DNA of 36,814 nucleotides from Acidobacteriota bacterium. Its GTDB lineage: Bacteria; Acidobacteriota; Thermoanaerobaculia; Thermoanaerobaculales; Sulfomarinibacteraceae. This document shows, piece after piece, positions 3,063-33,026 of this stretch. The stretch is taken from positions 1 through 36,814 of the forward strand of contig JAHECW010000033.1 in the NCBI GenBank assembly GCA_024641545.1, written 5' to 3'. Each line of letters starts with the position of its first letter. Position 1 is the first letter of the stretch. The position numbers and the translations under genes are program-made. The notes beneath the pieces are model-generated. The model searched no databases. It saw only the letters and a program-made list of their open reading frames with translations, and was not told the origin of the DNA.

Positions 3063-3849
3063 CGGCGTCCTCGCGTTCGGGTGGCTCGAACGATGCCTCG
3101 TCGAGGGTGCGCCGGCCACGGCGGAGATAGATTTCGGCAAACGGCAGTCGTTGTTCCGCGCGGGCCGCGCCCAGACGGACCAGCTCCAGGGTGGCGACGA
3201 TGAGAACCACCACCTCCTCCGGGTTCGCCCGCCGATTGAGATGGCGTGTGAGGGGCACGAGATCATCCTCGGTGATCCGCTGGTAGATCTCCCGCATCTT
3301 GTCCTGCACGCTGTAACGCAGGGGAATGACCTGGATCGGCGGCGGGTGGGCCGCTGCAAACCTTTGCATTACATAGAGATACGTCTCCGCCAAGAGCCGG
3401 AGATCGACCTCCTCCCAGTCGAGCTCGACGTCTTCATCATCGAGGTCGGCGATGATCCCCGCCGGCCAGATGCACTGACGGACGAGATCCTTGTCGTGCA
3501 GGATCGAGGCCAGTTCCTTGACCCGGCGGTAGGCAAGGAGCCGCTCCACCAGCTCCTCCCTGGGGTCCCCTTCCTCGGTCTCGGTTCTCGGCAGAAGCAT
3601 CTTCGACTTGAGTTGGAGAAGCCACGCCGCCATCCAGAGAAACTCACCGGCGACCTCGAGGTCGAGTTCCTGCATGGTGCGGACGTGCTCGTGGTACTGA
3701 TCGCAGATGCTGAGAATGGGGATGTCGTAGATCGAGACCTCGTTCTTGCGAATCAGATGCAACAAGAGATCGAGGGGCCCGCAGAAAAAGGGCAATTCGA
3801 CGGACGGTCCCAGGGGAATGAAGTCGGCGAGATCGGGATTCACTTCCAC
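3052..3849 (-). CDS. scpA: segregation and condensation protein A (kleisin)
   Basis: About 265 aa from GTG at 3849. The N-terminal kleisin signature is VELPFFCGPLDLLLHLIRKN followed by EVSIYDIPILSICDQYHEHV; a middle segment FLWMAAWLLQLKSKMLLPR and a C-terminal winged helix (around FAEIYLRRGRRTL) complete the family pattern. ScpA bridges the SMC heads with ScpB. The start is uncertain. GTG 3849 and GTG 3843 have no ribosome site, but a TATACT hexamer lies 7 nt before 3849, so a leaderless mRNA is likely. The frame remains open to a GTG at 3930, also without a usable ribosome site. It overlaps scpB by 11 bp and diverges from the exonuclease gene at 4022. Confidence 0.92.
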   Translation of the reverse strand: MEVNPDLADFIPLGPSVELPFFCGPLDLLLHLIRKNEVSIYDIPILSICDQYHEHVRTMQELDLEVAGEFLWMAAWLLQLKSKMLLPRTETEEGDPREELVERLLAYRRVKELASILHDKDLVRQCIWPAGIIADLDDEDVELDWEEVDLRLLAETYLYVMQRFAAAHPPPIQVIPLRYSVQDKMREIYQRITEDDLVPLTRHLNRRANPEEVVVLIVATLELVRLGAARAEQRLPFAEIYLRRGRRTLDEASFEPPEREDADEF

Positions 3850-3856
3850 GCCGAGG

Positions 3857-3862
3857 AGTATA
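3857..3862 (-). promoter_or_regulatory. putative -10 box of scpA, leaderless arrangement
   Basis: TATACT on the minus strand ends 7 nt before GTG 3849, placing the predicted transcription start at or next to the start codon. No convincing -35 is visible 16-19 bp upstream. Confidence 0.5.
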
Positions 3863-4021
3863 ACCGGCCCGGCACGAAACCCGTGCAGGCTCCCTGCCGC
3901 AACACGACCCGAAATCGCGCCATTTTTCACCCTCCATCGCCCGCCGCCGCCGGGGCGCGAGATGCGGCGGCGCGTGTTAAGCTCGGCCCGCCGACAAACG
4001 ACGTTTTCAAGGGAGGTGCGC

Positions 4022-4618
4022 TTGGAGCTCTGGGACGGCCAGATGAGCCTCTACGACGACAACCCGCAACGCGAGGTCGGGGCGAAGCGAAGGGTCGTCG
4101 TCTTCGACCTCGAGACCCAGCGGTCTTTCGACGAGGTCGGCGGACGAAGCCAGATGCATCGCCTCGGGGTTTCGGTGGGGGTCGCCTACCGCTACGACAC
4201 CGACGAGTTTCTGGTTTACACCGAAGACAACATCCAGGAGCTCATCGAGCTTCTGTTCAAGGCCGATCTCGTGGTCGGGTACAACATCAAGGGATTCGAC
4301 TACGAAGTGCTTCGCGGGTACTCGGACAAGAATTTTCAGAAACTCCCGACCTTCGACATGATGTACGACCTCGAGGACCGGCTCGGTTTTCGGCCGAAGC
4401 TCGAAAGCGTCGCGGTTCCCAGCCTGGGCGGGGGCAAGTCGGCGGATGGGCTGCAAGCTCTCGAATGGTGGCGGCAGGGCGAAATCGACCTCATTGTGGA
4501 ATACTGCCGCGACGACGTCAGGGTGACCCGTGATCTCTACGATTTCGGCAAGCGAAATCGCTGTGTCCTGGTCTCTCGATTCGGCGGGAAGCCACGCCAG
4601 GTCGCGGTCGAGTGGTAG
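4022..4618 (+). CDS. stand-alone DEDD-type 3'-5' exonuclease / RNase H-like protein (YprB-like)
   Basis: 198 aa. The ribonuclease H-like fold is shown by the three exonuclease motifs: VVVFDLETQRSF (Asp and Glu of Exo I), LVVGYNIKGFDYEVL (Exo II Asp) and YCRDDVRVTRDLYD (Exo III). A PTFDMMYDLEDRLGFR stretch lies between the last two. This matches the predicted exonucleases related to YprB and the DNA polymerase B proofreading domain; removal of nucleotides from a 3' end is expected but the substrate is unknown. The start is taken as TTG 4022 because GGGAGG ends 5 nt before it; ATG 4043 is a weaker alternative. It diverges from scpA and converges on the CheA-type gene. There is no helicase domain attached, unlike many relatives. 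Confidence 0.82.
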   Translation: MELWDGQMSLYDDNPQREVGAKRRVVVFDLETQRSFDEVGGRSQMHRLGVSVGVAYRYDTDEFLVYTEDNIQELIELLFKADLVVGYNIKGFDYEVLRGYSDKNFQKLPTFDMMYDLEDRLGFRPKLESVAVPSLGGGKSADGLQALEWWRQGEIDLIVEYCRDDVRVTRDLYDFGKRNRCVLVSRFGGKPRQVAVEW

Positions 4619-4643
4619 CGGGGTCCGACGCTGGGCGCACCGG

Positions 4644-6671: not shown

Positions 6672-6677
6672 TTGAAC

Positions 6678-8323: not shown

Positions 8324-8770
8324 TCAACCGACTCTCGGCGCGACAAAAAGTTGTTCCGGGTCCAGGATGAAGATGAGCCGATCGTCCACCGTACTCGTAC
8401 CCGCGACCCAGCGCGGGTCATCCGGTCGCGGCGGCTGCGGATTCGCCACCCGGATCACGCCGAAGGCCTCGTCAACGGCCAGTCCCAGCGACGATCCTCC
8501 GCCCGGTTGACCGACGATCACCGTCAGCCCATGACCCCCGCTCGCCCCACCCTCCTCATCGAGGAGGGCATGGAGATCAACGACCGCGACGGGCTCACCC
8601 GCGACCTGGGCAAGCCCGAGCAGCCGCGGATCCGAGCCGTGGAGCGGGTAGACCCTGGGCGCACTGATCACGAGCTTCGCGGCATTGACCGGAATCGCGC
8701 AACGGTGACTTCCGCTGCGAACCAGCAGATGGTGTGCTTTGCTGTCTGGATGTTCCGCATCGGTGCCCAT
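8324..8770 (-). CDS. cheW: CheW-like chemotaxis coupling protein
   Basis: 148 aa. A single CheW beta-barrel domain: HHLLVRSGSHRCAIPVNAAK, GLAQVAGEPVAVVDLHALLD, LGLAVDEAFGVIRV and a final VDDRLIFILDPEQLF, all at the expected spacing. It would couple the adjacent chemoreceptor to the CheA hybrid in the receptor array. The start is ATG 8770: a TATGCT -10-like hexamer lies 8 nt before it and there is no clear ribosome site; an in-frame ATG at 8788 would lie upstream of the predicted transcript. First gene of the cheW-receptor-cheA run. No cheR, cheB or cheY is present nearby. Confidence 0.87.
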   Translation of the reverse strand: MGTDAEHPDSKAHHLLVRSGSHRCAIPVNAAKLVISAPRVYPLHGSDPRLLGLAQVAGEPVAVVDLHALLDEEGGASGGHGLTVIVGQPGGGSSLGLAVDEAFGVIRVANPQPPRPDDPRWVAGTSTVDDRLIFILDPEQLFVAPRVG

Positions 8771-8778: not shown

Positions 8779-8784
8779 AGCATA
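8779..8784 (-). promoter_or_regulatory. putative -10 box of the cheW operon
   Basis: TATGCT on the minus strand ends 8 nt before ATG 8770. The -35 region is not convincing. It lies in the 31-bp gap after the upstream membrane-protein gene, so the chemosensory genes may have their own leaderless transcript. Confidence 0.4.
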
Positions 8785-8801: not shown

Positions 8802-9668
8802 TCAGACCGGCGCCTCGGAGGAGTCGTGGTGCAGGACCGCTCCGGTCTTGACCTCACCCGCGGACCAGTCCATTTCCGAGCCGCGGAAACTGTGAGGGAT
8901 CAAAAAAACCCCCATCATCACGATCCACCCGACGACGACGGCGGCCAGGAGCCTGCGACCACGCATGGCGAGGATCGTTGCAGGAAGCCACGCAATGCAG
9001 GCGATGAGCGTCTTGTTGTCGGTCAGGTCGTGGCCGAAGGGCCAGCCGGTCCAGTAGGCCCCGAAGGCGAACTTCTGGACCACCGGTCCGAGAAAGAGGC
9101 CACCGACGACCAGCAGCCCCATGGCGATCACGACCTGACGCCTGGGATCCGGAGTCGATGGCCGGAGCACCTCCAGGAGGACCCAGGTCGCCACCAGCAT
9201 GCTGCCGAACATGGCCAGGATGTGGGGAATCAGCACCCAGGCCGGGACACTCGCACGAAAGCGCGCCACAACCGCTTCGTCGGCAGGGATGAGCACCTCG
9301 CCGCCGGTCGTGTCGAGCACCAGCCGGTACTCTACTTTTCCGGCGGGGGGTTGGTGCGGCACCGTCGCCTCCAGGCGCCCGTCGCCGGTTCGGCTCATGG
9401 CTACCGATGACCACGGCTCCGATGTCGGATACCGGCGCCACTCGAGCGACCCGTGCCCGATGCTCTCGGGTACAACGAGGTTGACCGCGAGACCACCCTC
9501 CCCACCGTGGCTGCGCGGCAGACGAAAGCGGATCTCGGTTCCGTCAGGCGTCAGCGCCTCGCCGCGTTTCGGATGGCTCGGGCCGGTCATGCGTTGAAAG
9601 AGGGCGAGAATCACCGTCAAGATGAAGGCGGCGATCCAGAAGGCAACGGCGGTGCTGCGTGTAGTCAC
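8802..9668 (-). CDS. membrane protein of unknown function, five predicted TM segments
   Basis: 288 aa from GTG 9668. An N-terminal membrane anchor (VAFWIAAFILTVILALF) is followed by a soluble beta-rich domain of about 120 residues facing outside, with WRRYPTSEPWSSVAM and PAGKVEYRLVLDTTGGEVLI. Four more hydrophobic segments close the protein (starting near IPHILAMFGSMLVATWVLL). Between the third and fourth is a striking polar motif, FAFGAYWTGWPFGHDLTDNK, with His, Asp and Trp residues that could bind a ligand or cofactor. I do not recognise a named family. A TAGAAT hexamer lies 7 nt before GTG 9668 and no ribosome site is visible. It lies between the synthetase terminator and cheW, both on the same strand; a chemosensory role is possible but unsupported. 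Confidence 0.8.
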   Translation of the reverse strand: MTTRSTAVAFWIAAFILTVILALFQRMTGPSHPKRGEALTPDGTEIRFRLPRSHGGEGGLAVNLVVPESIGHGSLEWRRYPTSEPWSSVAMSRTGDGRLEATVPHQPPAGKVEYRLVLDTTGGEVLIPADEAVVARFRASVPAWVLIPHILAMFGSMLVATWVLLEVLRPSTPDPRRQVVIAMGLLVVGGLFLGPVVQKFAFGAYWTGWPFGHDLTDNKTLIACIAWLPATILAMRGRRLLAAVVVGWIVMMGVFLIPHSFRGSEMDWSAGEVKTGAVLHHDSSEAPV

Positions 9669-9675: not shown

Positions 9676-9681
9676 ATTCTA
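9676..9681 (-). promoter_or_regulatory. putative -10 box of the membrane-protein gene
   Basis: TAGAAT on the minus strand ends 7 nt before GTG 9668, immediately downstream of the rho-independent terminator of the preceding gene. No good -35 is visible; the position would fall in the terminator stem. Confidence 0.45.
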
Positions 9682-13773: not shown

Positions 13774-13802
13774 TTGTCGCCGGCGTCGAAACCGGTTAGA
13801 GT
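13774..13802 (+). promoter_or_regulatory. promoter of the PEGA Ser/Thr kinase gene, leaderless arrangement
   Basis: TTGTCG (13774-13779), exactly 17 bp, then TAGAGT (13797-13802), ending 6 nt before ATG 13809. There is no ribosome site in the 6 nt. Confidence 0.6.
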
Positions 13803-13808: not shown

Positions 13809-15509
13809 ATGGACACCCCTAAGAGGATCGGCAAATATGAGGTTTCGGCGCAAATCGCGGCCGGGGGTTTCGGAGTCATCTTCAAGGGCTGGGATCCCTT
13901 CATCAAACGTCCCGTGGCGATCAAGATGTGCGCGTCTCCCGATGAGGAAGTGCGTCAACGGTTCCAACAGGAAGCGCAGTTCGTCGGCAACCTCGTACAC
14001 CGGAACATCACCCTGGTCTTCGACTTCGGTGTCGAGAACGGCATCCCCTACATCGTTCAGGAGTTTCTGACCGGTTACGACCTCGACCCGCTGGTCCACG
14101 CCGGAGTCGTCAAAGACACCCGGACCGTGGTTTCGATTTTGCTTCAGGTCTGCGAAGGGCTCGATTTCGCCCACAAGCGCGGCATCATCCACCGGGACAT
14201 CAAACCGTCGAACATCCGGGTGCTCGAGGACGGCACGGTCAAGATCATGGACTTCGGGATCGCCAAGTCCCTCGAAGGCGGCTCCAAGCTGACCCAGACC
14301 GGGATCGCGCTCGGCACCGCCGGATACCTCGCTCCCGAACAGATTCAAGGCGGCTCGGTCGACCCGCGCACGGATATCTTCTCCTTCGGCGTCGTGGCCT
14401 ACGAGCTGGCGACCGGCAAACGGCCGTTCGAGGGCGCCTCGCTGTCGAACGTCCTCTACCAGATTCTCAATGACGATCCCACCCAACCGACGGATCTCTC
14501 GGAGGAGGTCTCGCCCGAGCTCCAGCGGGTCATTCTCAAGTGCATGGCCAAGGACCCGGCGAATCGTTTCCAGACGGTGCGCCAGATCCTGGACGCCCTG
14601 CGTCTGGTCCCGGGCGCTATCGGCGCTGACGGTGATTCCCTGGTCGAGGTCACCACGGGAGTGCTTCGGGTGGCGGTATCCGCCATGCCTCACGTCAACG
14701 GAGGCGACGAACCGCCGACCCGCGATCTCTCCGGCATCGAAACCGGCAATGAGCGCACCGAAAAGGTGCCGACCGGCGGATCCGTCACCCAGCTGACCCG
14801 GACTCCCGAGATCGAGGAGGAGGAATCCGATCGTCGGAGCCCGGTTTTCGTGATCTTCCTCCTGCTGCTGGCCCTGGTGTTGGCCACGGGCGCAGCTCTC
14901 TATCTCTCAAAGGACGTTCAGAACCTGGTGTTCGGCGCCGAGGGACCGCCGTGGATTCCCACTCCGACACCGACTCCGACCGCAACACCGACCCCGTCGC
15001 CGACCCCGACAGAGACCCCGACTCTGGTCCCGACCGAGACCCCGGCGCCGGAACCGACCCCGACGCCCGCGCCGATCAGCGTGCGTCTCCACGTCGATCC
15101 GCCGGCGACGGTGGAGATCGACGGCCAGGTCTTCGACGGCGGCAAGAAGACCAGCGGCGGCCAGGTGGCGCTGCTGCCGGGGATGCACACATTCACGGTC
15201 TCGGTGCCCGATTTTCCGCCCAGAACCATCACCCGGCAGATCACCGGTTCGACCGGAACCATCGTGCTCAACCTCGATCTCGGGTGGCTGACGGTCATGG
15301 CGGACCCGGCGATCCGGCTGCCTGGGGGCGAGGTCTTCATCGACGGCAACAAGATCGGGTCGTTGCCCCTCATCCGCAAGAAGGTCTCGGCCGGAGCGCA
15401 CGAACTGGCGGTGCGGTGGCCGGGATCGGACAAGGCATTCCGACGGAACATCGAGATCCCGCAGGCGCCGGCGGAGCTGCGGTTGACGGTGGCGCCCGGG
15501 GGGAGCTGA
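13809..15509 (+). CDS. transmembrane Ser/Thr protein kinase with extracytoplasmic PEGA domains
   Basis: 566 aa. Hanks-type kinase domain, residues about 11-270, with every catalytic motif intact: IAAGGFGVIFKG P-loop, VAIKMC Lys, IIHRDIKPSNI catalytic loop, IMDFGIAKS (DFG), GTAGYLAPEQ and DIFSFGVVAYELATGKRPF. An acidic, Ser/Thr-rich juxtamembrane region (about 290-340) may hold autophosphorylation sites. One membrane helix (VFVIFLLLLALVLATGAALY, about 344-365) leads to a Thr-Pro repeat linker (about 383-419), a rigid wall-spanning type spacer, then one or two PEGA-like beta domains (VDPPATVEIDGQVFDGG; IRLPGGEVFIDGNKIGSLPL). It senses something outside and phosphorylates cytoplasmic targets, which are unknown. 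It may cooperate with the secreted TPR protein encoded next, but each appears to have its own promoter. Confidence 0.92.
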   Translation: MDTPKRIGKYEVSAQIAAGGFGVIFKGWDPFIKRPVAIKMCASPDEEVRQRFQQEAQFVGNLVHRNITLVFDFGVENGIPYIVQEFLTGYDLDPLVHAGVVKDTRTVVSILLQVCEGLDFAHKRGIIHRDIKPSNIRVLEDGTVKIMDFGIAKSLEGGSKLTQTGIALGTAGYLAPEQIQGGSVDPRTDIFSFGVVAYELATGKRPFEGASLSNVLYQILNDDPTQPTDLSEEVSPELQRVILKCMAKDPANRFQTVRQILDALRLVPGAIGADGDSLVEVTTGVLRVAVSAMPHVNGGDEPPTRDLSGIETGNERTEKVPTGGSVTQLTRTPEIEEEESDRRSPVFVIFLLLLALVLATGAALYLSKDVQNLVFGAEGPPWIPTPTPTPTATPTPSPTPTETPTLVPTETPAPEPTPTPAPISVRLHVDPPATVEIDGQVFDGGKKTSGGQVALLPGMHTFTVSVPDFPPRTITRQITGSTGTIVLNLDLGWLTVMADPAIRLPGGEVFIDGNKIGSLPLIRKKVSAGAHELAVRWPGSDKAFRRNIEIPQAPAELRLTVAPGGS

Positions 15510-15608: not shown

Positions 15609-15638
15609 TTGCGGCGAGGACCGCTTCGCAGGTAAAGT
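15609..15638 (+). promoter_or_regulatory. promoter of the TPR gene, leaderless arrangement
   Basis: TTGCGG (15609-15614), 18 bp, TAAAGT (15633-15638), ending 6 nt before ATG 15645. No ribosome site is visible. Confidence 0.5.
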
Positions 15639-15644: not shown

Positions 15645-17273
15645 ATGATCAGGAAAGCTGCGCTCGTTTTTTGCCTCGTTGCCGTCATCGGCGCCGCGCT
15701 GCCCGCCTCGGCTCAAGAGAGCGCGACCACTCCGAGCGAGGAGGCCGCGATCCAGGCCTTTCGCCAGGGTTCGTTTTCAAAAGCGGTGGATCTCTACCGC
15801 CAGGGCCTCCAGGAGACCGATGATCCCGGTCACCGGGCCCGTCTCCACATCAACATCGCGTGGACGCTCTTTGCCCTCGGCCGGGAGGCCGAGGTCCAGA
15901 CGCACCTCCGCGCGGCGTTGGTCGAAGATCCGAATCTGACGCTGCTGCCGGACTACTACACCCAGGAGTTCATCGACCTCTTCGACCAGGCGCGGATGCG
16001 GGGCGTGACCGTCGACCCGTCGTCCCCACCCCCCGACCTCGAGGTCACCATCGCCGCGGTCGAGGCTCGAATGCTCGAGCGGAGCGACCTCGAGGGCGCC
16101 CTCGCCGATGTCGACCGGTTGCTCGTGAGCTATCCGGAGGACGGCAGGTTGATCCCTCTGAGGGCCGAGATCCTGAGAGATCTCGGGCTCGAGCAGGAGG
16201 CCGATGATCTTCTTCGAACCTACGGCGGCAATTTCACGCCGGGTACGTACGGAGATCGGATGTCGATCCCGGATCTGATTCTCCGCGCCAACCGCCTTCT
16301 TGAAGAGGGGGACGCCGGAACCAGTCTCGACCTCCTCCGCCAGGCCGTCGCGCGCCAGCCGAACAACGTCGCCGCCCTCGAGCTCATGGCGGAGGCGGCC
16401 CAACGCGGCGGGCATTGGGACGAGGCCGAGTTCGCCCTCAAGTCTGCGCTCGGCATGCAGCCCGGCAACGTCGGCCTCCAGCTCCGGCTCGGTGAGGTCT
16501 TCATCGCCAAGACGGAGCTCTCCGCCGCTCGTGACGTGTTCCGCGAGATCACCGAGCAGTCGCCTCACTCCGATCGCGGCTGGGCGGCGCTCGGTCTGCT
16601 CGAGGCACGGCTCGGTAACCGCGATCGCGCGCTCTCCCATCTCGACCGCGCCATCGAGGAGAACCCGCTCCTGCCCGAGGTTCAGCTGGCCAGGGGCGAG
16701 CTGCTCCTCGCCGTCGGTCTGGCGGCGCCGGCGACCGCGGCTCTCGAAGCCGCTGCCAACCTTCTCCGCGACGATGCCCAGCTCGAGGCACGGCTCGGCC
16801 AGGCGCTGCTCGCGTCCGGTCGGAACGCGGAAGCCCTCGAGCACCTGAGGACGGCCGTCGCGAGCGGATTCGCGCCCGATGATGTCGAACGCGCCCTGGC
16901 GCTGGCCCTCGCACTCAACGGCCAGAATGCCGAGAGCGAGAGGGTCCTCAGCCAGTCAGGGATCGCCAAGAACCTGGACACGGAGATCATCCGAGGCCTG
17001 CTGATGCTCGAACGATCGAGCTACGCCGCCGCGGAGGAGATTCTCCGCCCGGTCGCGACGGCCCGCGCAAACGAACCCGCGGTGCTCAATCTCTTTGCCG
17101 CCACGCTCTACAACCAGCGCCGTTATGCCGATGCCGTGGGCTATCTGGCAGGCGCCGAGGAGCTCAACCGGTCCATCGCGGACATCGTCTCCAACCTGGC
17201 GGTGGCGAGGGCGGCGCGCGCCGCCGAATTGCTTGCGGAAAACGCCGCCACGGTCAAGGCGGCGCCGCAGTAG
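15645..17273 (+). CDS. secreted tetratricopeptide-repeat protein
   Basis: 542 aa. A Sec signal peptide (MIRKAALVFCLVAVIGAALP, cleavage near ASAQE) precedes an alpha-solenoid. The first TPR pair (AIQAFRQGSFSKAVDLYRQG; ARLHINIAWTLFALGREAEV) is followed by a conserved-looking segment PNLTLLPDYYTQEFIDLFDQ and then about ten TPR-like helix pairs with typical W/L/G/A/P spacing, for example GWAALGLLEARLGNRDRALS and VLNLFAATLYNQRRYADAVG. The last 25 residues are Ala-rich. It probably acts in the periplasm as a protein-protein scaffold; partner unknown. It sits 135 bp downstream of the PEGA kinase gene in the same direction. The intervening DNA contains a GAACCGCAAGGACGCA-type stretch that looks like decayed repeat. 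Confidence 0.88.
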   Translation: MIRKAALVFCLVAVIGAALPASAQESATTPSEEAAIQAFRQGSFSKAVDLYRQGLQETDDPGHRARLHINIAWTLFALGREAEVQTHLRAALVEDPNLTLLPDYYTQEFIDLFDQARMRGVTVDPSSPPPDLEVTIAAVEARMLERSDLEGALADVDRLLVSYPEDGRLIPLRAEILRDLGLEQEADDLLRTYGGNFTPGTYGDRMSIPDLILRANRLLEEGDAGTSLDLLRQAVARQPNNVAALELMAEAAQRGGHWDEAEFALKSALGMQPGNVGLQLRLGEVFIAKTELSAARDVFREITEQSPHSDRGWAALGLLEARLGNRDRALSHLDRAIEENPLLPEVQLARGELLLAVGLAAPATAALEAAANLLRDDAQLEARLGQALLASGRNAEALEHLRTAVASGFAPDDVERALALALALNGQNAESERVLSQSGIAKNLDTEIIRGLLMLERSSYAAAEEILRPVATARANEPAVLNLFAATLYNQRRYADAVGYLAGAEELNRSIADIVSNLAVARAARAAELLAENAATVKAAPQ

Positions 17274-17313: not shown

Positions 17314-18495
17314 TCAGGCGATGGTGCTCAGGAACGCGAGGATGTCCCGCACCGCCTGTTCCGGCCGGTGCGATGCCTCATAGCACCTTCGCGCCGAGGT
17401 GCCCCGGTCAGCCCACATCGGCTCCCCCACCCGGGCCAGGATTCTCGCGAGTTCGGCGGCGGCGGACGGCCCCGGTGTCAGCCGAGGCGCAGCCGGCTCG
17501 GGCCACTCGAGAAACTGGCGGACCCCGCCCACGGCGACCGGAACGGAGCAGGCGAAAAACCGGAGAACCGCGGCGGAGGTCTCGCCGGCTGAAGGTGTTC
17601 GGAAGACGATACCGAGGTCCGCAGCGGCCGGGAAACCGGGGAAATCCGCCGCCTCGACCCAGCCGGTGACGACCAGGCAGTCCTCGACGCCGGCGCTGTT
17701 CGCCGCCCGCCGGAGGGTCTCCATCGCACGGCCCTCGCCGACCACCACGAGACGTACCGGCACGCCGGACGCATTGGCGGCGGCGACTCCGGTGAGGATC
17801 TCGACGAGCCCTTTCTCCGGGGTCAGAAAGCCGAGGTGCATGAGGACCACCTCATCGGGCCGCAACCCGAGTCGCGCCCGAACCGCCCCCCGGTAGGTCG
17901 GCCCGGGATCGGCGACCGCGAGACCGACACGTCCGACCGGGACTTCCGGCAGTTCGCGGCGAATCAGTTCTTCAGCCCAGCGCGAGTGGACACAAACGGC
18001 GTTCACCGAGTCGAGAAAAACCTGCCGCGCCGGGAAGAGAAACGGATCGAGATGTCCCTCGATCCCGACCGCCCTGGCCGCCGCGAGCGCCTGTCCCGCG
18101 CGGCCGTGGGCCGAAGCCAACGCACTCGAGTACGCGGTTTGGTCGCCGAGGCCGAGGGTGGATTCCACCAGCAGGTGGTGGAGCACGGCATCGTGCAGCA
18201 CGACGACGGTGCGGCCTTCGAGCCGCAGCCGGTCGAGCAGCCACAGGTGGTACGGGTTGTTTCCCAGGTGGAGCAAAGCGATTTCGCCGGGGCGAGCGGC
18301 GGCGTCGGTCGGCACGAGATCGAGATCTCTCGGCCAGTCGGCGGGGGCCGTCCAGTCCGGCGGTCTGAGAACCCGGACCGTTGCCGACCTCGCGAGATCG
18401 GGAAGCACTTCCATTGCGTAGTCCGCAACCCCGGATCGGGTCGGAGGCAGCGGCGATCCCCAGAGAATCCGGGCGGGTTTGACGTGCGGGTCCAT
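17314..18495 (-). CDS. GT4-family glycosyltransferase
   Basis: 393 aa. GT-B fold glycosyltransferase of family 4. The N-terminal domain starts ILWGSPLPPTRSGVADYAME, a form often seen in enzymes that bind their acceptor by a PxxSGxxxY loop. The C-terminal nucleotide-sugar domain contains LMHLGFLTPEKGLVEILTGV, RLVVVGEGRAMETL, and a degenerate E-x7-E region FRTPSAGETSAAVLRFFACS. It likely transfers a sugar from a nucleotide-sugar donor to a surface glycan; donor and acceptor are unknown and no glycan cluster surrounds it. ATG 18495 has a TAGAAT hexamer 5 nt upstream and no ribosome site. It diverges from the small membrane protein gene and converges on the TPR gene. Confidence 0.87.
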   Translation of the reverse strand: MDPHVKPARILWGSPLPPTRSGVADYAMEVLPDLARSATVRVLRPPDWTAPADWPRDLDLVPTDAAARPGEIALLHLGNNPYHLWLLDRLRLEGRTVVVLHDAVLHHLLVESTLGLGDQTAYSSALASAHGRAGQALAAARAVGIEGHLDPFLFPARQVFLDSVNAVCVHSRWAEELIRRELPEVPVGRVGLAVADPGPTYRGAVRARLGLRPDEVVLMHLGFLTPEKGLVEILTGVAAANASGVPVRLVVVGEGRAMETLRRAANSAGVEDCLVVTGWVEAADFPGFPAAADLGIVFRTPSAGETSAAVLRFFACSVPVAVGGVRQFLEWPEPAAPRLTPGPSAAAELARILARVGEPMWADRGTSARRCYEASHRPEQAVRDILAFLSTIA

Positions 18496-18500
18496 ACCGA

Positions 18501-18506
18501 ATTCTA
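18501..18506 (-). promoter_or_regulatory. putative -10 box of the GT4 gene
   Basis: TAGAAT on the minus strand ends 5 nt before ATG 18495, the shortest spacing of the leaderless set in this window. The -35 is poor. Confidence 0.4.
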
Positions 18507-18551
18507 CCCTCCCCTTCGCGGACCGGGCTCGGAGGAGGGAAACAGGCAGGG

Positions 18552-18557
18552 TATGAT
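18552..18557 (+). promoter_or_regulatory. putative -10 box overlapping the annotated start of the small membrane protein
   Basis: TATGAT begins 1 nt before ATG 18553 and ends 7 nt before an in-frame GTG at 18565, the spacing seen at other leaderless starts here. If it is used, the real start is the GTG. Confidence 0.35.
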
Positions 18558-18813
18558 CATCCTCGTGGCGGCCATTCGTATGCTCGTGACGGTGATCTAT
18601 GCCTCGTATCTGACCAATGTCGGGCTGCTCTTCATCCTCCTGCCGTGGTCGGAAGGATGGTCGCGTTTCGTCCTGCTTCTCTCCCCTCGGATGGGCTTCT
18701 TTCTCGACAATCCCGCGGTCCGCGGCGTGGTGAGCGCGTTCGGTTTTCTCCATCTGGCGCTCCTGGTCGGAGAGCTCTTCGTTCCGGGCCGGTGGGTCGA
18801 TCGGCGATCCTAA
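18553..18813 (+). CDS. small membrane protein of unknown function
   Basis: 86 aa from ATG 18553, or 82 aa from GTG 18565. The sequence has a hydrophobic N-terminal half (MLVTVIYASYLTNVGLLFIL), an amphipathic middle with LLPWSEGWSRFVLLLSPRMG, and a second helix SAFGFLHLALLVGELFVPG. Two or three membrane passes with very short loops are likely; the C-terminus is basic. No family is recognised. The ATG start has only AGGCAGGG near it; a -10-like TATGAT overlaps that ATG and favours the GTG start on a leaderless message. It lies between a divergent glycosyltransferase and the response regulator on the same strand, with 113 bp to the latter, which has its own promoter. Confidence 0.65.
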   Translation: MIILVAAIRMLVTVIYASYLTNVGLLFILLPWSEGWSRFVLLLSPRMGFFLDNPAVRGVVSAFGFLHLALLVGELFVPGRWVDRRS

Positions 18814-18891: not shown

Positions 18892-18920
18892 TTGCCGGTG
18901 GATTTCCTCGGGGGTAGACT
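18892..18920 (+). promoter_or_regulatory. promoter of the response regulator gene, leaderless arrangement
   Basis: TTGCCG (18892-18897), exactly 17 bp, TAGACT (18915-18920), ending 6 nt before ATG 18927. One of the best -35/-10 pairs in the window. Confidence 0.6.
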
Positions 18921-18926: not shown

Positions 18927-19298
18927 ATGGAGGGACGGATTCTCATCGTCGACGACGAAGCCTATCTTCGTCGCATTCTCTGCTTCAAACTCGAGCGCGC
19001 CGGTTTTCAGACCTTCGAGGCGCCATCGGCTGAGGCGGCGGAGAAGGTACTCGAAGAGCACGAAGTGGATCTCATGCTCCTCGATGTCGGGCTCGCGACG
19101 CCGACCAACGGTTTTGACCTCGCCGCCCGGTTGCGGCAAAACGCGCGAACCGAACGACTGCCGATCATCCTACTCACCGCCCGCGGATTTGCCTCAGATG
19201 TCCTCCGGGGCCGGGAGATCGGCGCCGCCGGTTACATCACCAAGCCCTTCTCCACCGATGAGGTGGTCAGCAGGGTTCGGGCGATTCTCGGCAGTTGA
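18927..19298 (+). CDS. single-domain response regulator (receiver only)
   Basis: 123 aa. A complete CheY-like receiver: ILIVDDEAYLRRIL with the acidic pair, phosphoacceptor Asp in DLMLLDVGLATPTNGFDL, conserved Thr in PIILLTARG, and Lys in GYITKPFSTDEVV. There is no output domain, so it acts by protein-protein contact or as a phosphotransfer intermediate. It is longer than CheY around the loop after the Asp (LATPTNG instead of the usual MPxxxG), a small insertion. The cognate kinase is not adjacent; the CheA hybrid 12 kb away, which lacks CheY nearby and has a dead receiver, is a conceivable but untested partner. lspA follows 84 bp downstream. Confidence 0.92.
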   Translation: MEGRILIVDDEAYLRRILCFKLERAGFQTFEAPSAEAAEKVLEEHEVDLMLLDVGLATPTNGFDLAARLRQNARTERLPIILLTARGFASDVLRGREIGAAGYITKPFSTDEVVSRVRAILGS

Positions 19299-21899: not shown

Positions 21900-22547
21900 T
21901 CATCGGTCGGAGTCGGTCAGGGCTGAAGTGAGCTTTCTCCTCAGGGCTTCCGACACCCGTGGATCTGAGATCGCGCGTCGGAGATCCTCCGCGGTGTCGA
22001 CGTCCGGGAGGGTCTCGAGCTCGTGCCAGCTGATCTCGAGGTTCCTCAATCTCTCTCTGGTCGTCTCGAGGGTGTCCGGACTCGACCACGGCACCCCGGT
22101 GAAGAGGTCCGCGCCCGGCAGGCGTTGACCCACCAGCCAGTAGCCGCCGTCCTCGGCGGGGCCGAACACAACCGGAAGGTCCTCGAGAGCCGCGAATGCG
22201 GATCGAATGTGGTCGGGTTGGAGACGCGCGTTGTCCGAACCGATGATGACGACCCGATCAGAACCCGTCGAAAAACGACGATCGAACGATTCGGCCATTC
22301 TGCCGCCGATGTCTCCCCCACTCTGGACTTCGAAAGGGAGGTCGAGTTCAGCGGCCCAGCGAGCCGTCGGCGCCGCCGCGAGCGAGAGCGTCGCCTCGAT
22401 CCCGGCTGCGCGGGCGGTGTCGACGGTGTGCTCGAGCAACGCCGAGTAGACGGCGGCGGCCGCCTCGGCGCCGGTCCCCCGGGCGAGACGGGTCTTCACC
22501 CGGCCGGCCAGCGGTTCGCGGGCAAAGACCACCAACCGTGCGCTCAT
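21900..22547 (-). CDS. DUF2064 / TIGR04282-type nucleotidyl- or glycosyl-transferase
   Basis: 215 aa, cytoplasmic. It matches the small GT-A-like family named rSAM/selenodomain-associated transferase 1: RLVVFAREPLAGRVKTRLAR at the N-terminus (the KTRL nucleotide-binding loop), VVIIGSDNARLQPDHI in place of the usual GSDxPxL, VFGPAEDGGYWLVG, and a C-terminal TLPDVDTAEDLR typical of MobA/CofC-like enzymes. A nucleotide-activated substrate is expected; the real reaction is unknown. The start ATG 22547 overlaps the stop of the upstream transferase as ATGA, so the two are coupled. No radical-SAM or selenodomain protein is in the window. Confidence 0.85.
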   Translation of the reverse strand: MSARLVVFAREPLAGRVKTRLARGTGAEAAAAVYSALLEHTVDTARAAGIEATLSLAAAPTARWAAELDLPFEVQSGGDIGGRMAESFDRRFSTGSDRVVIIGSDNARLQPDHIRSAFAALEDLPVVFGPAEDGGYWLVGQRLPGADLFTGVPWSSPDTLETTRERLRNLEISWHELETLPDVDTAEDLRRAISDPRVSEALRRKLTSALTDSDR

Positions 22548-23275
22548 CGGACGATCCCGTACCACCGGGCGAGCGTCGCCGGCGGCACGCCGAGACGAAA
22601 AAGGATCGGGAAGACGGCGACGATCAGCCGGGAACGAATCGGGTTCCGCTCGAACCGCCGGGCGCTGGTCCGCACCTCGAGCGGCAGCCGCCGGATCCGG
22701 CCGTGACGCCGACAGCTGCGGGCAAAGGCAAAGTCCTCCATCAGCGGGATGTTGGGGAACCCGCCGAGCGATGCCAAGACCTCGCGACGCAGGGCGTAAC
22801 CCTGATCGCCGTAGGGGAGGCCCCAGCCGCGGGACCGCAGATCGAGAAGCGACAGCCAGAATCGGCGCCGGGCACCCGGGACGCCGCCATCACCCGGCAC
22901 GGTGCGGAGTCTGAACGTCGCCAGGAGACAGCGTTCATCGTCGAGGGCGTCCATGACCGCGTCGAACCATCCGGCGGGCAGCACACAGTCCGCGTGGACA
23001 AAGAGCAGACGCGCTGCGGACGCCGCTGCGGCGCCTCGATTGAGCTGCCCGCCGCGCCCGGGCGACCCGTTCACCACGACGGCATCGGGCCGGGTGGAAC
23101 GAACGATCTCCACCGTCGCATCCGTGCTTCCCCCATCCGAAACCACGACCTCGACCTCACTGTTCGTGCCGACGGAGGCCAGACACGCTCCGATCCTGAG
23201 CTCCTCATCGAGGGTTGGAATGACGACCGAAAGGAGTGCAGCCGCGTTCTCGGGAAGAGCGGAATCCAGGGTCAT
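22544..23275 (-). CDS. GT2-family transferase (TIGR04283-like, rSAM/selenodomain-associated transferase 2)
   Basis: 243 aa. GT-A fold: LSVVIPTLDEELRIGACLAS, EVVVSDGGSTDATVEIV, GRGGQLNRGAAAA, LLFVHADCVLP with the metal-binding DxD-equivalent HAD, WGLPYGDQGYALRREVLASL and a C-terminal hydrophobic helix (FPILFRLGVPPATLARWYGI) that may attach it to the membrane. The GDQG and MEDFAF motifs are typical for this subfamily. Substrate unknown. Start ATG 23275 has a TACACT hexamer 7 nt upstream and no ribosome site; the frame is open further, but those residues are not family-like. Its stop overlaps the next gene (ATGA). It diverges from the Rieske gene with overlapping -10 boxes. Confidence 0.88.
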   Translation of the reverse strand: MTLDSALPENAAALLSVVIPTLDEELRIGACLASVGTNSEVEVVVSDGGSTDATVEIVRSTRPDAVVVNGSPGRGGQLNRGAAAASAARLLFVHADCVLPAGWFDAVMDALDDERCLLATFRLRTVPGDGGVPGARRRFWLSLLDLRSRGWGLPYGDQGYALRREVLASLGGFPNIPLMEDFAFARSCRRHGRIRRLPLEVRTSARRFERNPIRSRLIVAVFPILFRLGVPPATLARWYGIVR

Positions 23276-23282
23276 CGCCCCA

Positions 23283-23292
23283 AGTGTATGAT
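23283..23292. promoter_or_regulatory. overlapping divergent -10 boxes, GT2 gene (minus) and Rieske gene (plus)
   Basis: TACACT on the minus strand (23288-23283) ends 7 nt before ATG 23275; TATGAT on the plus strand (23287-23292) lies 20 nt before ATG 23313. They share two base pairs, so polymerase could open only one at a time. Neither has a clear -35. Confidence 0.4.
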
Positions 23293-23312
23293 GCCCGCGG
23301 GAGGCGCGTTTC

Positions 23313-23669
23313 ATGGAACCCATCGCGAAACTCGACGAGATCCCCTCCCAGGGAATCATCTTCGACTACAAGGAAGGGCCCTTCGACGAGCAGGGCATTC
23401 TCCTGCACACCAGGAGCGGGGTCCGGGCCTACAAGAACGAGTGCCGCCACCTCCCCATGCGGCTCGATGATCGCGAACCGGCCGAGGTCTGGGACCCGCA
23501 CAAGCGCTACCTCGTCTGCAACTCCCACGGCGCCCGCTATCGTCCCGACGACGGGCTCTGCGTTTCCGGTCCCTGCGAGGGGTCGCACCTGAGACAGCTG
23601 CCCGTCGTCGTCGAGGACGGCGTGGTGTTTCTGGAGACCGACAAGATCGGTGGGTTTTTTGACGTCTAG
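23313..23669 (+). CDS. Rieske-type [2Fe-2S] protein
   Basis: 118 aa soluble protein. The cluster ligands are visible as NECRHLP (Cys44, His46) and VCNSHGARYRPDDGLCVSGP (Cys69, His72), followed by the GP-loop typical of Rieske ferredoxins; the C-terminal RQLPVVVEDGVVFLET strand pair is also family-like. It could pass electrons to an oxygenase or act as a stand-alone ferredoxin. No Rieske oxygenase is next to it; it converges, 20 bp apart, on phenylalanine hydroxylase, which uses pterin rather than a Rieske donor. The start ATG 23313 has GGGAGG 8 nt upstream, so it is translated from a normal leader, unlike its divergent neighbour. Confidence 0.88.
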   Translation: MEPIAKLDEIPSQGIIFDYKEGPFDEQGILLHTRSGVRAYKNECRHLPMRLDDREPAEVWDPHKRYLVCNSHGARYRPDDGLCVSGPCEGSHLRQLPVVVEDGVVFLETDKIGGFFDV

Positions 23670-25538: not shown

Positions 25539-28156
25539 CCGATCCCACCAGGAAAACCGACCTCCTCGACCGCGTCGCGGACGAGATTCGCAACCAGGCT
25601 CTCGATGACGATGTCGTCGCCGCCGCCACCGAACGGGTCTGGAACGCGATCCACGCCGAGTTCTCGGTCGATGCCCCCCTGCGTTCGTGCGCCGATGTCC
25701 AGGCGCTGCTGCCGGCGTTCGTCGCCGAGGAGCTTCCCGAGGGCAAGGCCCTCCTCGTCGGCGACCACACCCGGGAGTGCGTCCCCTGCCGACGCGTGCT
25801 GCTCGAGCTTCGCAGCGGCGGCGACCGGGCGAGCGCCCCCAGCGCGCCGCTGCGACAGCACCGCGGCATGCCGGCGTGGCTCAAGCTCGCGGCCGCGGTG
25901 GTGCTCGCCGTCGGCGCCGGTTCCATGGCCTGGGTGACCGGCGGCAATTTCCTCGCCGAGAAGAACCTCGCGGCGCAGGTCGCCTCGATCGACGGATCAC
26001 TCCAGCTCGTGACCGACCAGGCAACCGTCGACCTCGCCGAGGGCGACACGGTCCACGCCAAACAGCGGGTTCGCACCGCCAAGGAAACCGGCGCCTTTCT
26101 CCGGCTCGCCGATGGATCCATGGTCGAGATGGCGCCGCGCTCCGAGATCGCCCTCCGCGGGTCCCGGCGCGGCACGACCATCGAGCTCGGCCACGGCAAC
26201 ATCATCGTCCACGCCGCCGAGCAGGGCCGCGGCCGGCTCGGCGTGACCACCAACGACTGCGAGGTTGCCGTCAAGGGCACGATCTTCGCCGTCGATCACG
26301 GTCTCAAGGGGTCGCGGGTCTCGGTCATCGAGGGCGAGGTCGAGGTCCGCCAGGGCGGCACCGAGTCGATGCTCCTGCCGGGCGACCAGATCACGACCGA
26401 CAAACGGCTCAAGACGGTGGCCATCGAAGACACGATCTCGTGGAGCGTCAACGCCGACGAACACCGCCGTTTGCTGGCCGAGCTCACCCAGCTCCAGCAC
26501 GCGGTCGCCGAGGCGGTCGACATCGCCGCGCCCCGCACCTCCACCCGTCTGCTCGATCTGAGCCCGGCGGACACGGTGCTCTATGTCGCGATGCCGAATC
26601 TCACCGAGGGCCTCGGCGCCGCCCGGCAGATCTTTTCGAGCCGGCTCGCCGAAAGCGACGTGCTGCGGGACTGGTGGCAGCGCGAGATCGTCGCCAGGAA
26701 CATCGACACCCAGATCGAGGACAGCCTCGACCGACTCCAGTTTCTCGGCGATGCCGTCGGCGACGAGGTCGTCGTCACCCTCGGTGCGTCGAGTCTGGCC
26801 GGCGCGGGCGCACCGCTCATCCTCGCCGAGCTCGACGATCCCCAGCGCTTCCGCTCGGCGCTCGAAGAGCACCTGGCGAGCGACCCGGACGGCATGCGGT
26901 CGGTTCAGCTGCTGACCGATCCCGACCAACCCGTCGGCGAGGGAGTCGAGGTGCTGATCTGGGTGGCCGACGATGTCGTCGTCGCGGCCCGCACCGCCGA
27001 TCTGATCCAGGGTGTCGCCGCCCGTCTCGCTGCAACCGGACCGAGCGCGTTCGTCGGCACCGAGCTCCACCAGCAGCTCGGCGACCGTTACGCGGCGGGA
27101 GTCGAGTGGCTCTTCGGCCTCGATCTGCACAGGATCTTCGTCGAGGCCGCCGGCGGCACCGATTCCGAGAACGCGGCGATGATGGAGCGCCTCGGTCTGT
27201 TTGACGCGACGACCATGGTCTTCGAACGCCATCGCGACGAGATCGGCTCCAAGATCGACGCCGACATCCGCTTCAGCGGACCCCGCCGCGGGGTCGCCGC
27301 CTGGCTCGCCGGGCCGGCGCCGCTGACAACGCTGGACTTTGTCTCTCAGGATGCCTACCTGGTGTCGGCCGTGGCCGCCAAGGACGGGATCGAGCTCTTC
27401 GACGAGCTCATGGGGCTGGTTTCGACGATCGGTGCCGATGCCCAGAACGAACTCGAGAGCTTCCAGACCGAGATCGGGATCGATCTGCGGGAGGATCTCG
27501 CGGCCGCCATCGGCGGTGAAGGCACCTTCGCCATCGACGGACCGGTCCTGCCCCTCCCGACCTGGAAGCTGATCCTCGAGGTCTACGATCCGGACACCCT
27601 GGGCCACTCGATCGGCGAAATCGTCCGACGGGCCAACGCCGAGCTCGCGAGCAACGGCGCCGAGCCGATCTCGGTCGAGGTCCGGACCGTGGACGGCCGA
27701 ACGCTGACGACCCTGCGCCACCCGTCGAGCCCGGTCGCCTTCACCTATACCCTGACCGACGGCTGCCTGATCGCCGGTTCGAGCCGCTGGGCGGTGGAAT
27801 CCGCCATCGCCGTCAAGCAGTCGGGCATGGGCCTGGCGTCGTCGACCGCCTTCCGCGAGCTGCTGCCGAACAACGGGTTCACGGACTGCTCGGCCCTGAT
27901 CTACCGGAATCTGTCGCCGATCGTCGGCGTCCTGCCCAGGGGGGCGATGGGCTCTCAGTTCGGCGAAGTCGAGACGCTGCTCAAGGAAAGCGCCGCACCC
28001 GGTCTGTTCTGCGCCTACGGTCTGGAGGACCGGATTCTGGTCTCGGGCACCGGTCCGAGCCTGGTCGGTCTCGCTCCCCTGCTCGGAATTCAGAGCCTGA
28101 TGGATTTCGACGGGATCGTCGAAAACGGCCCGGACCGAGTATCATCACCCGAATGA
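25535..28156 (+). CDS. zinc-finger anti-sigma / FecR-domain / DUF3352-like membrane protein
   Basis: 873 aa. Residues 50-90 hold a zinc-binding anti-sigma motif H-x3-C-x2-C (His78, Cys82, Cys85 in [12 protein letters not shown]). One membrane helix follows ([20 protein letters not shown], 113-132). Outside the membrane comes a FecR domain (about 150-300: [59 protein letters not shown]). The remaining 550 residues (about 330-860) resemble DUF3352-type repeats, for example [35 protein letters not shown] and [20 protein letters not shown]. The sigma binding end is cytoplasmic and a very large sensor is outside. Unlike FecR proper, no TonB receptor is nearby. It overlaps both neighbours by ATGA and probably sequesters the ECF sigma factor encoded before it. 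Confidence 0.85.
28140..28145 (+). promoter_or_regulatory. possible internal -10 box before the first ABC ATPase gene
   Basis: TATCAT ends 7 nt before ATG 28153, the spacing of the leaderless genes in this window, but it also lies inside the operon, where the start overlaps the upstream stop. It may provide sigma-independent expression of the transporter. Confidence 0.3.
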
Positions 28157-29091
28157 AAACCTCTCCCGACCAGGGCGCGCCCGTCCTCGAGCTTGACGGC
28201 CTGACCGTCAAGCTCGGCAAGCGGACGATCCTCGATCACCTCGAGGCCTCGTTCTCCGGCCGGGCCATCGGTCTGCTCGGACCCAACGGCGCCGGCAAGA
28301 CCACCCTGCTGCGCACCCTTCTCGGCTTCTATCCGCCGACCGCGGGGGGCGCGCGGGTCTTCGGCCGCGAGCTGTCGGTCGCCGCCAAAGAGATCCGTGC
28401 CGAGATCGGCTACATGCCCGAGTCCGACGCCTTCATCGCCAACATCACCGCGGTCCACTTCGTCCGGCTCATGGCCGAGCTCAGCGGCCTGCCCTCCGAG
28501 GCCGCCCTCGAGCGCGCCCACGAGGCGCTCTTTTATGTCGGCCTCGGTGAGGCGCGTTATCGCAGGGTGGGGACCTTCTCCACCGGGATGAAGCAGATGG
28601 TCAAGCTCGCCCAGGCCCTGGTCCACGGGCCCCGGCTGCTCATGCTCGACGAACCCACCAACGGGCTCGACCCGCCGGCCCGCAAGCGGATGATCGATCT
28701 GGTCTGCGACATCCGCAATCGCGGAACCAGCCGGATCATCCTCTCCTCACACCTTCTCGGCGATGTCGAGATGGTCTGCGACGAGGTCCTCATTCTCAAG
28801 AACGGGGCCATCGCCGACTCCTGCGATCTCGCGGCCGACCGCCAGGCCAACAAGCACTTCGTCGAGGTCGATCTCGAGACCCCCAACGCCGAATTCGACC
28901 GCGCGGTGGCGGCGCTCGGATGCGAGATCGCCTCGCTCGAGCCCGGCAAGCTCAAGCTGGTGATGCCGGCCGAGGTCTCCACCCGCGAGCTCTGGATCGC
29001 GGCCGAAAAGACCGGTGTCGGCATCCGCCGCCTCGACCTCAAACGCGACTCGCTCCAGGACATCTTCATGCGCGCCATGGAGGGCAACTGA
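28153..29091 (+). CDS. ABC transporter ATP-binding protein (first ABC pair)
   Basis: 312 aa. Walker [21 protein letters not shown], a Q-loop region with YMPESDAF where Glu-Ser replaces the usual Gln, a degenerate signature [17 protein letters not shown], Walker [13 protein letters not shown] and the switch His in [10 protein letters not shown]. The C-terminal 80 residues ([20 protein letters not shown]) are the extension common in ABC-2 drug and antibiotic exporters. It powers the permease encoded 2 bp downstream. Start ATG 28153 overlaps the anti-sigma gene stop (ATGA). Confidence 0.93.
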
Positions 29092-29093
29092 CC

Positions 29094-31722: not shown

Positions 31723-31803
31723 ACGGCAAGTGAACCGCGAAGTGCGCAGAGGTCGGCCATTGCGACGGGCGCGGAAGAAGAACACCGCACGGACTGAATC
31801 GTG

Positions 31804-31879
31804 TTGAAACACGACGCACACAAAGACCCACGAAGCGACCACCAAGACATCGCAGGATCAACCCGCACCCCAATCGACC
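31804..31879 (+). repeat. dispersed intergenic repeat, copy B
   Basis: In the 188-bp gap between the last permease and murB (convergent). It begins TTGAAACACG and aligns without gaps to copies A and C over 67 bp. The preceding 80 bp has GAACCGCGAAGTGCGCAGAG-like words, probably an older fragment of similar material. Confidence 0.65.
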
Positions 31880-31910
31880 GTGAACGGTCAACGCTCCCTG
31901 CGATGGACGA

Positions 31911-32990
31911 TCACTCGGTCGGGTCGTCGCGATCGAAACCCCAGAAGACGGGCTCGGGTTTGAGATCGACCCCGAGGTGGGCCCGCACACCCCGCCGGAT
32001 GTCCCTGGCAAATTCGATGAGCTCGCCGGTGGTCCCGTCGCCCCGGTGGACGAGGGCGAGGGCGTGCTTCGTCGACAGCCCGACCCTGCCGCGGACGGCG
32101 CCCCTGGGAAAACCCGCGTGCTCGACGAGCCACGCGGCCGAGAGCTTGTACCGTTCCTCCCCCACCGGGTGCACCGGCGGCTGCTGATCGAAGCCGAGAA
32201 CGCCGAGCACCCGCGCCGAGGCGATGACGCTCTCGAGGTTGGCGCCGTCGACCACCGGGTTGACGAAGAACGAGCCGACGCTGCGCCGGTTCGGGTCGTC
32301 GTCGTCGATCACCATGGATTTCGAGCGCCGTAGATCGAGCACGGCGGCGCGGAGCTCGCCGAGGGTCGGCGTGGCGCCGGCGGCGAAACCCTCCGCGACC
32401 TGTGCGTAGCCGAGATTGGGCGCTCCGCCGGCAACGAGGCTGAACGCGACATCGAGGATGATGTACGGGTTGTCGGCTCGGCGGAAGACGCTGCTGCGGT
32501 AGCCGAAGCCGCACTCCGTGGCGGTCATGACGGTCTCTTCGAGGGTCTCCCGGTGGAGGACCCGAACCCTCGCCACGACCGAGGCCACCTCCTGGCCGTA
32601 AGCGCCGACGTTCTGGATCGGGGTCGCACCGGCGGTGCCGGGAATCCCCGACAGACACTCGATGCCCGCCAGGTTCTCCGCCACCGTCGTTTTCACCACC
32701 TCGTCCCAGGGCTCGCCCGCGGCGGCGGTGACCAGGGCGACGTCATGGCGGCGGTCGATGTCGAGCCCTCGCGTGGCGATCGTGACGATCAGACCGCGAA
32801 CCCCGCGGTCGGCGACCACGACGTTGGAGCCGCCGCCGAGCACGCTGACCGGGACCCCGCGGTCGACGGCCCAGCCCAGCGCGTCGCGGATCTCCGCCTC
32901 GCTCCCGGCTTCGACGAGCCACTCGGCGCGCCCGCCGAGCTCGAGGGTGGTTCTCGGGGCGAGGGGTGCGTTCGGAAGCGGTTCGATCAT
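31911..32990 (-). CDS. murB: UDP-N-acetylenolpyruvoylglucosamine reductase
   Basis: 359 aa. It reduces UDP-GlcNAc-enolpyruvate to UDP-MurNAc with NADPH and FAD, the second committed step of peptidoglycan synthesis. FAD-binding stretches are TTLELGGRAEWLVEA, VSVLGGGSNVVVADRGVRGL and GIPGTAGATPIQNVGAYGQE; the catalytic Ser is in RSVGSFFVNPVVDG and the C-terminal Glu region is LKPEPVFWG. YRSSVFRRADNPYIILDVAF places it with the longer type I (E. coli-like) enzymes. Start ATG 32990 has TAGACT 7 nt upstream and no ribosome site. It stands alone, away from the usual mur/ddl/fts cluster. Confidence 0.95.
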   Translation of the reverse strand: MIEPLPNAPLAPRTTLELGGRAEWLVEAGSEAEIRDALGWAVDRGVPVSVLGGGSNVVVADRGVRGLIVTIATRGLDIDRRHDVALVTAAAGEPWDEVVKTTVAENLAGIECLSGIPGTAGATPIQNVGAYGQEVASVVARVRVLHRETLEETVMTATECGFGYRSSVFRRADNPYIILDVAFSLVAGGAPNLGYAQVAEGFAAGATPTLGELRAAVLDLRRSKSMVIDDDDPNRRSVGSFFVNPVVDGANLESVIASARVLGVLGFDQQPPVHPVGEERYKLSAAWLVEHAGFPRGAVRGRVGLSTKHALALVHRGDGTTGELIEFARDIRRGVRAHLGVDLKPEPVFWGFDRDDPTE

Positions 32991-32997
32991 CGGCCAC

Positions 32998-33026
32998 AGT
33001 CTAGCCCCACCGGCGAGCGTCACCAA
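32998..33026 (-). promoter_or_regulatory. promoter of murB, leaderless arrangement
   Basis: On the minus strand, TTGGTG (33026-33021), exactly 17 bp, then TAGACT (33003-32998), ending 7 nt before ATG 32990. A strong pair. Confidence 0.6.

Follow-up and report, generated by a model that had tools for sequence, protein, structure and literature searches.

Eleven genes within the window, a 36,814-nt stretch of DNA (contig JAHECW010000033.1, assembly GCA_024641545.1) from an Acidobacteriota bacterium of the order Thermoanaerobaculales, carry a hexamer of the form TAnnnT directly before an ATG or GTG start codon, and these hexamers are interpreted here as probable promoter -10 elements that would give rise to leaderless mRNAs. 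The putative -10 elements, together with the -35-like boxes present at four of them, are listed below in window positions, where the spacer is the number of nucleotides between hexamer and start codon and the ortholog counts give the loci in which the arrangement is kept.

3857..3862, minus strand: putative -10 TATACT of scpA, 7 nt before GTG 3849; gene 3052-3849; 4/7 orthologs
8779..8784, minus strand: putative -10 TATGCT of cheW, 8 nt before ATG 8770; gene 8324-8770; 4/4 orthologs
9676..9681, minus strand: putative -10 TAGAAT of a "membrane protein" gene, 7 nt before GTG 9668; gene 8802-9668; 5/19 orthologs
13774..13779, plus strand: putative -35 TTGTCG of the protein kinase gene, 17 bp from its -10
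13797..13802, plus strand: putative -10 TAGAGT of the protein kinase gene, 6 nt before ATG; gene 13809-15509; 1/1 ortholog
15609..15614, plus strand: putative -35 TTGCGG of the TPR gene, 18 bp from its -10
15633..15638, plus strand: putative -10 TAAAGT of the TPR gene, 6 nt before ATG; gene 15645-17273; 10/10 orthologs
18501..18506, minus strand: putative -10 TAGAAT of the glycosyltransferase-4 (GT4) gene, 5 nt before ATG 18495; gene 17314-18495; 16/19 orthologs
18552..18557, plus strand: putative -10 TATGAT of a small gene ("membrane protein"), 7 nt before GTG; gene 18565-18813; 15/15 orthologs
18892..18897, plus strand: putative -35 TTGCCG of the response regulator gene, 17 bp from its -10
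18915..18920, plus strand: putative -10 TAGACT of the response regulator gene, 6 nt before ATG; gene 18927-19298; 7/7 orthologs
23283..23288, minus strand: putative -10 TACACT of the glycosyltransferase-2 (GT2) gene, 7 nt before ATG 23275; gene 22544-23275; 7/10 orthologs
28140..28145, plus strand: putative -10 TATCAT of the ABC ATPase gene, 7 nt before ATG; gene 28153-29091; hexamer within the 3' end of the preceding gene; 6/9 orthologs
32998..33003, minus strand: putative -10 TAGACT of murB, 7 nt before ATG 32990; gene 31911-32990 (Pfam MurB_C); 5/15 orthologs by strict TAnnnT
33021..33026, minus strand: putative -35 TTGGTG of murB, 17 bp from its -10

All eleven hexamers, with spacers of 5-8 nt and ATG or GTG starts, were located exactly as claimed in the original prediction, and its four -35 boxes were confirmed at their spacings of 17 or 18 bp. 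That prediction also held that these genes lack a ribosome-binding site and stand first in their transcripts; the former fails for GT4, where GGAGG lies ~12 nt from the ATG, and the latter for the ABC ATPase, which overlaps the preceding gene and is operon-internal. Both "membrane protein" labels originate with that prediction, and a Pfam search returned no match for gene 8802-9668 or for the small gene 18565-18813. The nearest relatives of ScpA come from Thermoanaerobaculales metagenome-assembled genomes (84, 77 and 72% identity), followed by Candidatus Sulfomarinibacter (68%) and an Acidobacteria metagenome-assembled genome (65%).

Coincidence had been judged unlikely, and this judgement holds: TAnnnT stands at spacer 5-8 before 11 of 32 window starts (the eleven above plus 21 added), whereas 500 sets of dinucleotide shuffles of the 60 nt upstream average 0.38 such starts and never exceed 3. 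Seven of the eleven starts (kinase, TPR, GT4, response regulator, GT2, ABC and murB) were picked exactly by a motif-blind gene caller, which scores only coding potential and start-codon type and ignores upstream motifs. Elsewhere this caller placed the scpA start 6 nt downstream, the membrane protein start 54 nt downstream and the small protein start 12 nt upstream, and left cheW uncalled. For the kinase, TPR and response regulator genes, the TAG, TAA and TAG of the respective hexamers form an in-frame stop at codon -4. None of the three has an earlier start, and the next in-frame one lies 35, 47 and 46 codons on, respectively. These three starts therefore cannot be far misplaced, and the short distance between hexamer and start in these genes is no artefact of annotation.

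Does this arrangement extend to the genome as a whole? The assembly comprises 5.38 Mb in 310 contigs at 99.4% completeness, and a sample of 772 kb (~14% of the genome, window included, contigs chosen by number) contains 594 genes, 575 of which have 60 nt upstream. These divide into 371 first genes (neighbour on the opposite strand, or a gap of 60 nt or more after the preceding gene), 160 internal genes (a gap of at most 30 nt) and 44 others. Counting TAnnnT by distance from the blind starts reveals a peak at spacer 6 before first genes, with 24 genes compared to ~3 at each spacer from 13 to 44. Spacers 5-8 together account for 41 of the 371 first genes, while nine four-spacer control bins hold 6-17, and the corresponding internal count is 4 of 160 with control bins of 0-3.

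A mixture model with a Shine-Dalgarno (SD) matrix, a TA matrix and a "none" class, summed over alternative starts, recovers the motifs GGAGG and TAcAAT. It assigns the first genes 53.6% to SD, 29.4% to TA and 17.0% to none, and the internal genes 74.2% to SD, 4.5% to TA and 21.3% to none; in 40 bootstrap resamples the first-gene shares range over 24.2-33.6% for TA and 50.7-59.6% for SD. The log-likelihood gain of the two-motif model is 463, versus 50 for one shuffled set, and ten shuffled upstream sets scored with frozen matrices yield a mean of 1.5% TA. Among the 29 first genes with a single possible start, TAnnnT occurs in five, always at spacer 6, and an SD-like core in 17; one gene combines the two. 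The model shares and the single-start genes thus identify SD as the majority mode of first genes and leaderless initiation as a minority. The proposal that first genes rely mainly on leaderless initiation is accordingly not supported (SD 51-60%, leaderless 24-34%), and the companion proposal that internal genes use GGAGG is supported.

The window itself was considered as a leaderless hotspot, and this candidate was set aside. By a strict count with free choice of in-frame start the window is richer, with 10 of 19 first genes compared to 30 of 223 elsewhere in the part of the genome sample gathered at that stage (Fisher P = 1.6e-4); by model-based assignment the difference, 7 of 18 versus 95 of 353 first genes, is not significant (P = 0.28), and the window had been selected for this very feature. 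The window is a rich tail of the genome. As a separate observation on the sample, matrix hits before first genes are few at spacers 14-17 (4 genes) and then number 16 at 18-21 and 13 at 22-25, as if promoters either abut the start codon or spare a leader long enough for an SD site.

If the hexamer is a promoter element, a -35 element should in some cases accompany it at fixed distance. When 134 TA genes (79 from this genome, 30 from the same-genus genome G002 and 25 from G023, which belongs to another family of the same order) are aligned at the hexamer, TTG occurs 17 bp upstream of it in 15 of them and at other spacings in ~2, and 58% carry a G two bases upstream of the hexamer. Promoter regions of 80 orthologs show the same preference, with TTG at 17 bp in 11 and at other spacings in 0-3. 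Most genes are without TTG at 17 bp, so the -35 element is optional. By these patterns, TAnnnT behaves as a -10 element of the sigma70 type.

Orthologs of the eleven genes provide a further line of evidence. From 168 gene-locus pairs supplied (a single locus for the kinase), 116 were kept and 52 were dropped before counting, owing to no match (28), identity under a per-gene cut of 35-55% (16), an alignment start more than 20 residues in (6) or proximity to an edge (2); the counts do not represent independent events, since the ortholog genomes are related and certain of them contribute to several genes. An in-frame start within 36 nt that TAnnnT precedes at spacer 5-8 is present in 80 of the 116, with control bins of 12, 9, 4 and 3, and the 80 divide into 47 at spacer 6, 29 at 7 and 4 at 8. 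The start of 37 of these 80 is displaced by -9 to +27 nt from the position extrapolated from the alignment while the spacer stays at 5-8 nt, and hence hexamer and start shift together. Fourteen window genes not assigned to TA (13 to SD and one to "none") served as controls; among their orthologs of at least 50% identity, which one of the 14 genes did not have, 0 of 54 have TAnnnT at spacer 5-8.

The same regions reveal a restriction on the start codon. Of 90 in-frame codons located 6-7 nt after TAnnnT, 39 are GTG, 37 are ATG and 14 are others, such that ATG and GTG make up 76, and TTG and CTG are represented by 0 each. The background of 2,900 in-frame codons in these regions includes 36 TTG, 82 CTG, 100 ATG and 118 GTG, and the probability of 0 TTG in 76, given the background share of TTG among ATG, GTG and TTG, is 9e-6. 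Widening to spacers 5-8 yields 0 TTG and 1 CTG among 112 codons. The conserved leaderless-type starts of the 80 orthologs are evenly split (39 GTG, 41 ATG). This restriction fits a transcript that needs a 5' purine, and fits the ATG/GTG-only rule of mycobacteria.

We now consider how these genes might be expressed. The hexamer would serve an ordinary housekeeping-sigma promoter as its -10 element, set so that RNA polymerase initiates on the leading A or G of the start codon, mostly 6-8 nt downstream of the hexamer. The resulting mRNA would be leaderless and translated without an SD site, and ribosomes presumably bind the 5'-terminal AUG or GUG. The genome would mix this mode with SD initiation, using it in a minority of first genes and at few internal genes. 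We assign a probability of roughly 0.9 to this reading, in which the transcription start itself, the sigma70 identity and the ribosomal mechanism are what we infer from patterns in the DNA. The motif, its spacing, the -35 element, the conservation and the ATG/GTG restriction are observed, and leaderless initiation at these genes is strongly supported by the spacer peak, the 17-bp -35, the linkage in orthologs and the codon rule, although its extent had been overstated.

One alternative hypothesis is that the hexamers are indeed -10 boxes but serve transcripts with a short leader, translation beginning at a later in-frame codon because the assigned starts are too early. Such codons exist for scpA, with a GTG two codons on, and for the membrane protein, with starts 16 and 18 codons on, and it is for these two genes that the blind caller chose later starts. 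However, the orthologs argue against this, since the hexamer mostly follows the ATG or GTG at 6-8 nt where the start shifts; moreover, the next start lies 35-87 codons on for the kinase, TPR, response regulator and ABC genes, and the receiver domain of the response regulator starts at residue 5. We regard this explanation as improbable. A fixed distance to the start codon would also be expected of a ribosome-binding motif of non-SD type that acts in translation and not as a promoter, but such a signal would not explain why TTG recurs at 17 bp in 15/134 and 11/80 cases, why the motif is scarce before operon-internal genes (4.5% versus 29%) or why only purine-initial codons follow, which renders it less probable still. 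That the pattern reflects chance and selective reading, with starts chosen for happening to have TAnnnT, could be argued from the strict-count richness of a window picked for the feature; the recovery of 7 of 11 starts by the blind caller, the peak in the genome sample and the ortholog conservation already contradict it, and it is the least credible of the three.

Several observations nevertheless weigh against leaderless initiation or its estimated extent. Shifting the spacers by 12 nt still leads the model to place 14% of first genes in the TA class, a control that is not clean, since true upstream promoters and alternative in-frame starts also feed into it, and the figure of ~30% leaderless is for this reason better read as an upper one. 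Blind starts give 11.1% of first genes (control bins 2.7%), and TTG is the start codon of 6 of the 134 genes in the looser model class. The strict pattern is poorly kept for the membrane protein and murB (5/19 and 5/15). By eye, the murB orthologs at loci L065, L066, L067 and L076 show CACACT in place of TAnnnT, with 7 nt separating it from an in-frame start, which indicates that the strict pattern undercounts. Finally, the ABC hexamer lies within the preceding coding sequence, and coding constraint could account for part of its conservation.

Retraining the two-motif model on small samples of 100-160 kb proved unreliable, as the E. coli control came out with 53% of first genes as "TA" and a matrix that had drifted to TaAGGA, a form of SD; for this reason matrices frozen from the genome minus the window were used. 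The frozen matrices assign to TA 30.1% of first genes in this genome, 30.8% of 78 in G002 (shifted-spacer control 19.1%), 42.0% of 46 in G023 (27.3%), 21.9% of 70 in 150 kb of D. radiodurans plasmid MP1 (3.2%) and 2.2% of 48 in 100 kb of E. coli (11.3%). A direct count of matrix hits at spacers 5-8 versus control bins is cleaner than the shifted-spacer comparison, and it yields 11.1/2.7% for this genome, 15.4/3.6% for G002, 17.4/3.0% for G023, 9.2/1.2% for G053 of the same class, 8.6/2.6% for MP1 and 0/3.8% for E. coli.

Across six lineages of the phylum the outcome is mixed. Frozen matrices give 16-33% TA, with shifted controls that are low in G053 (1.5%), G067 (2.1%) and G096 (0.9%), nearly equal to the signal in G048 (24.1 versus 26.0%) and above it in G065 (25.2 versus 16.2%). 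Direct hits, from 1-6 genes each, are 5.6/2.2% in G067, where they are scattered across spacers 4-12, 4.7/0.6% in G096, 8.8/3.8% in G065, 11.1/4.1% in G048 and 1.6/1.9% in G087, which has no peak. No claim is made for a phylum-wide distribution of leaderless starts.

Loss of ribosomal protein bS21 was considered as a correlate of leaderless starts and rejected. The protein is encoded in this genome (G000:C107 12472-12630) and in 58 of 60 phylum genomes searched, this one included, and the two genomes without a match are 79% and 72% complete. In the same search, Corynebacterium glutamicum of the control set was not among the control genomes with a match. Actinobacteria and Deinococcota are generally not known to encode bS21. 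We place at even odds the broader reading that Thermoanaerobaculales as an order maintain an evolutionarily stable mixed initiation, in which roughly a quarter to one third of first genes are leaderless, GTG and ATG are about equally frequent at conserved leaderless starts, and bS21 and strong use of SD are kept. If true, leaderless initiation on GUG would be efficient outside Actinobacteria and Deinococcota and decoupled from the loss of bS21.

Three arrangements in the window involve these promoters and their neighbours. The GT4 (minus strand) and small (plus strand) genes form a divergent pair (18495-18565) with a leaderless-type promoter on each. GT2 (minus strand) is likewise divergent from the next gene (plus strand), with 38 nt between starts (23275-23313); the minus-strand TACACT of GT2 overlaps a plus-strand TATGAT located 20 nt before the ATG of that next gene, which has its own GGAGG, and the overlap represents a possible shared bidirectional promoter. 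The ABC ATPase start overlaps the stop of the preceding gene (28140-28156), the hexamer lies within that gene's last codons, and TATCAT recurs in six orthologs, an apparent leaderless promoter within an operon.

Leaderless initiation is a known yet little-mapped mode, seemingly used here beside the usual ribosome-binding sites. Its presence suggests that gene-finding programs geared to SD sites may assign wrong starts in Thermoanaerobaculales; a comparative test in which the -10 tracks the start codon across orthologs works without RNA data. Our search found no paper on leaderless genes or transcription start sites under Thermoanaerobacul*, most subscription journals being outside its reach. 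Leaderless genes in Acidobacteria are nonetheless known in kind, having been predicted in 2011: in the accessible portions of Zheng et al. 2011 (PMC3160421), Acidobacteria are listed with leaderless genes in 3/3 genomes at a mean of 13.3% (9.7-19.4%). As in the TA-led genes described there, TANNNT lies ~12 nt upstream of the start, the motif has the high-GC form with weak middle positions, and operon-distal genes need SD; the present work differs in treating a Thermoanaerobaculales genome and in adding orthologs and -35 spacing.

In Deinococcus-Thermus, the available text of Zhong et al. 2025 (PMC12340547) describes TANNNT a few bp before the open reading frame as acting as a -10 for ~30% of open reading frames, with transcription in Deinococcus lowered by key-site substitution, -10-motif promoters enhanced by an added -35, and GGAG as the other motif. 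The main text of that paper, to the extent available, contains no Acidobacteri* in its scan of the bacterial domain, and its figure S7 spans common phyla. The adjacent TANNNT, the optional -35 and the GGAG-type second motif are shared with our genome, which belongs to another phylum and is read from sequence, whereas the Deinococcus work is experimental. In mycobacteria, the accessible part of Shell et al. 2015 (PMC4633059) reports that leaderless initiation needs a 5'-terminal ATG or GTG and not TTG or CTG; the same bias appears here in orthologs, deduced from sequence where ribosome profiling and reporters were used there. The comparison with Actinobacteria and Deinococcus-Thermus made in the original prediction is thus apt for the mechanism, although the organism is an acidobacterium, and well-supported leaderless initiation would be extended to an acidobacterial order known here from metagenome-assembled genomes alone.

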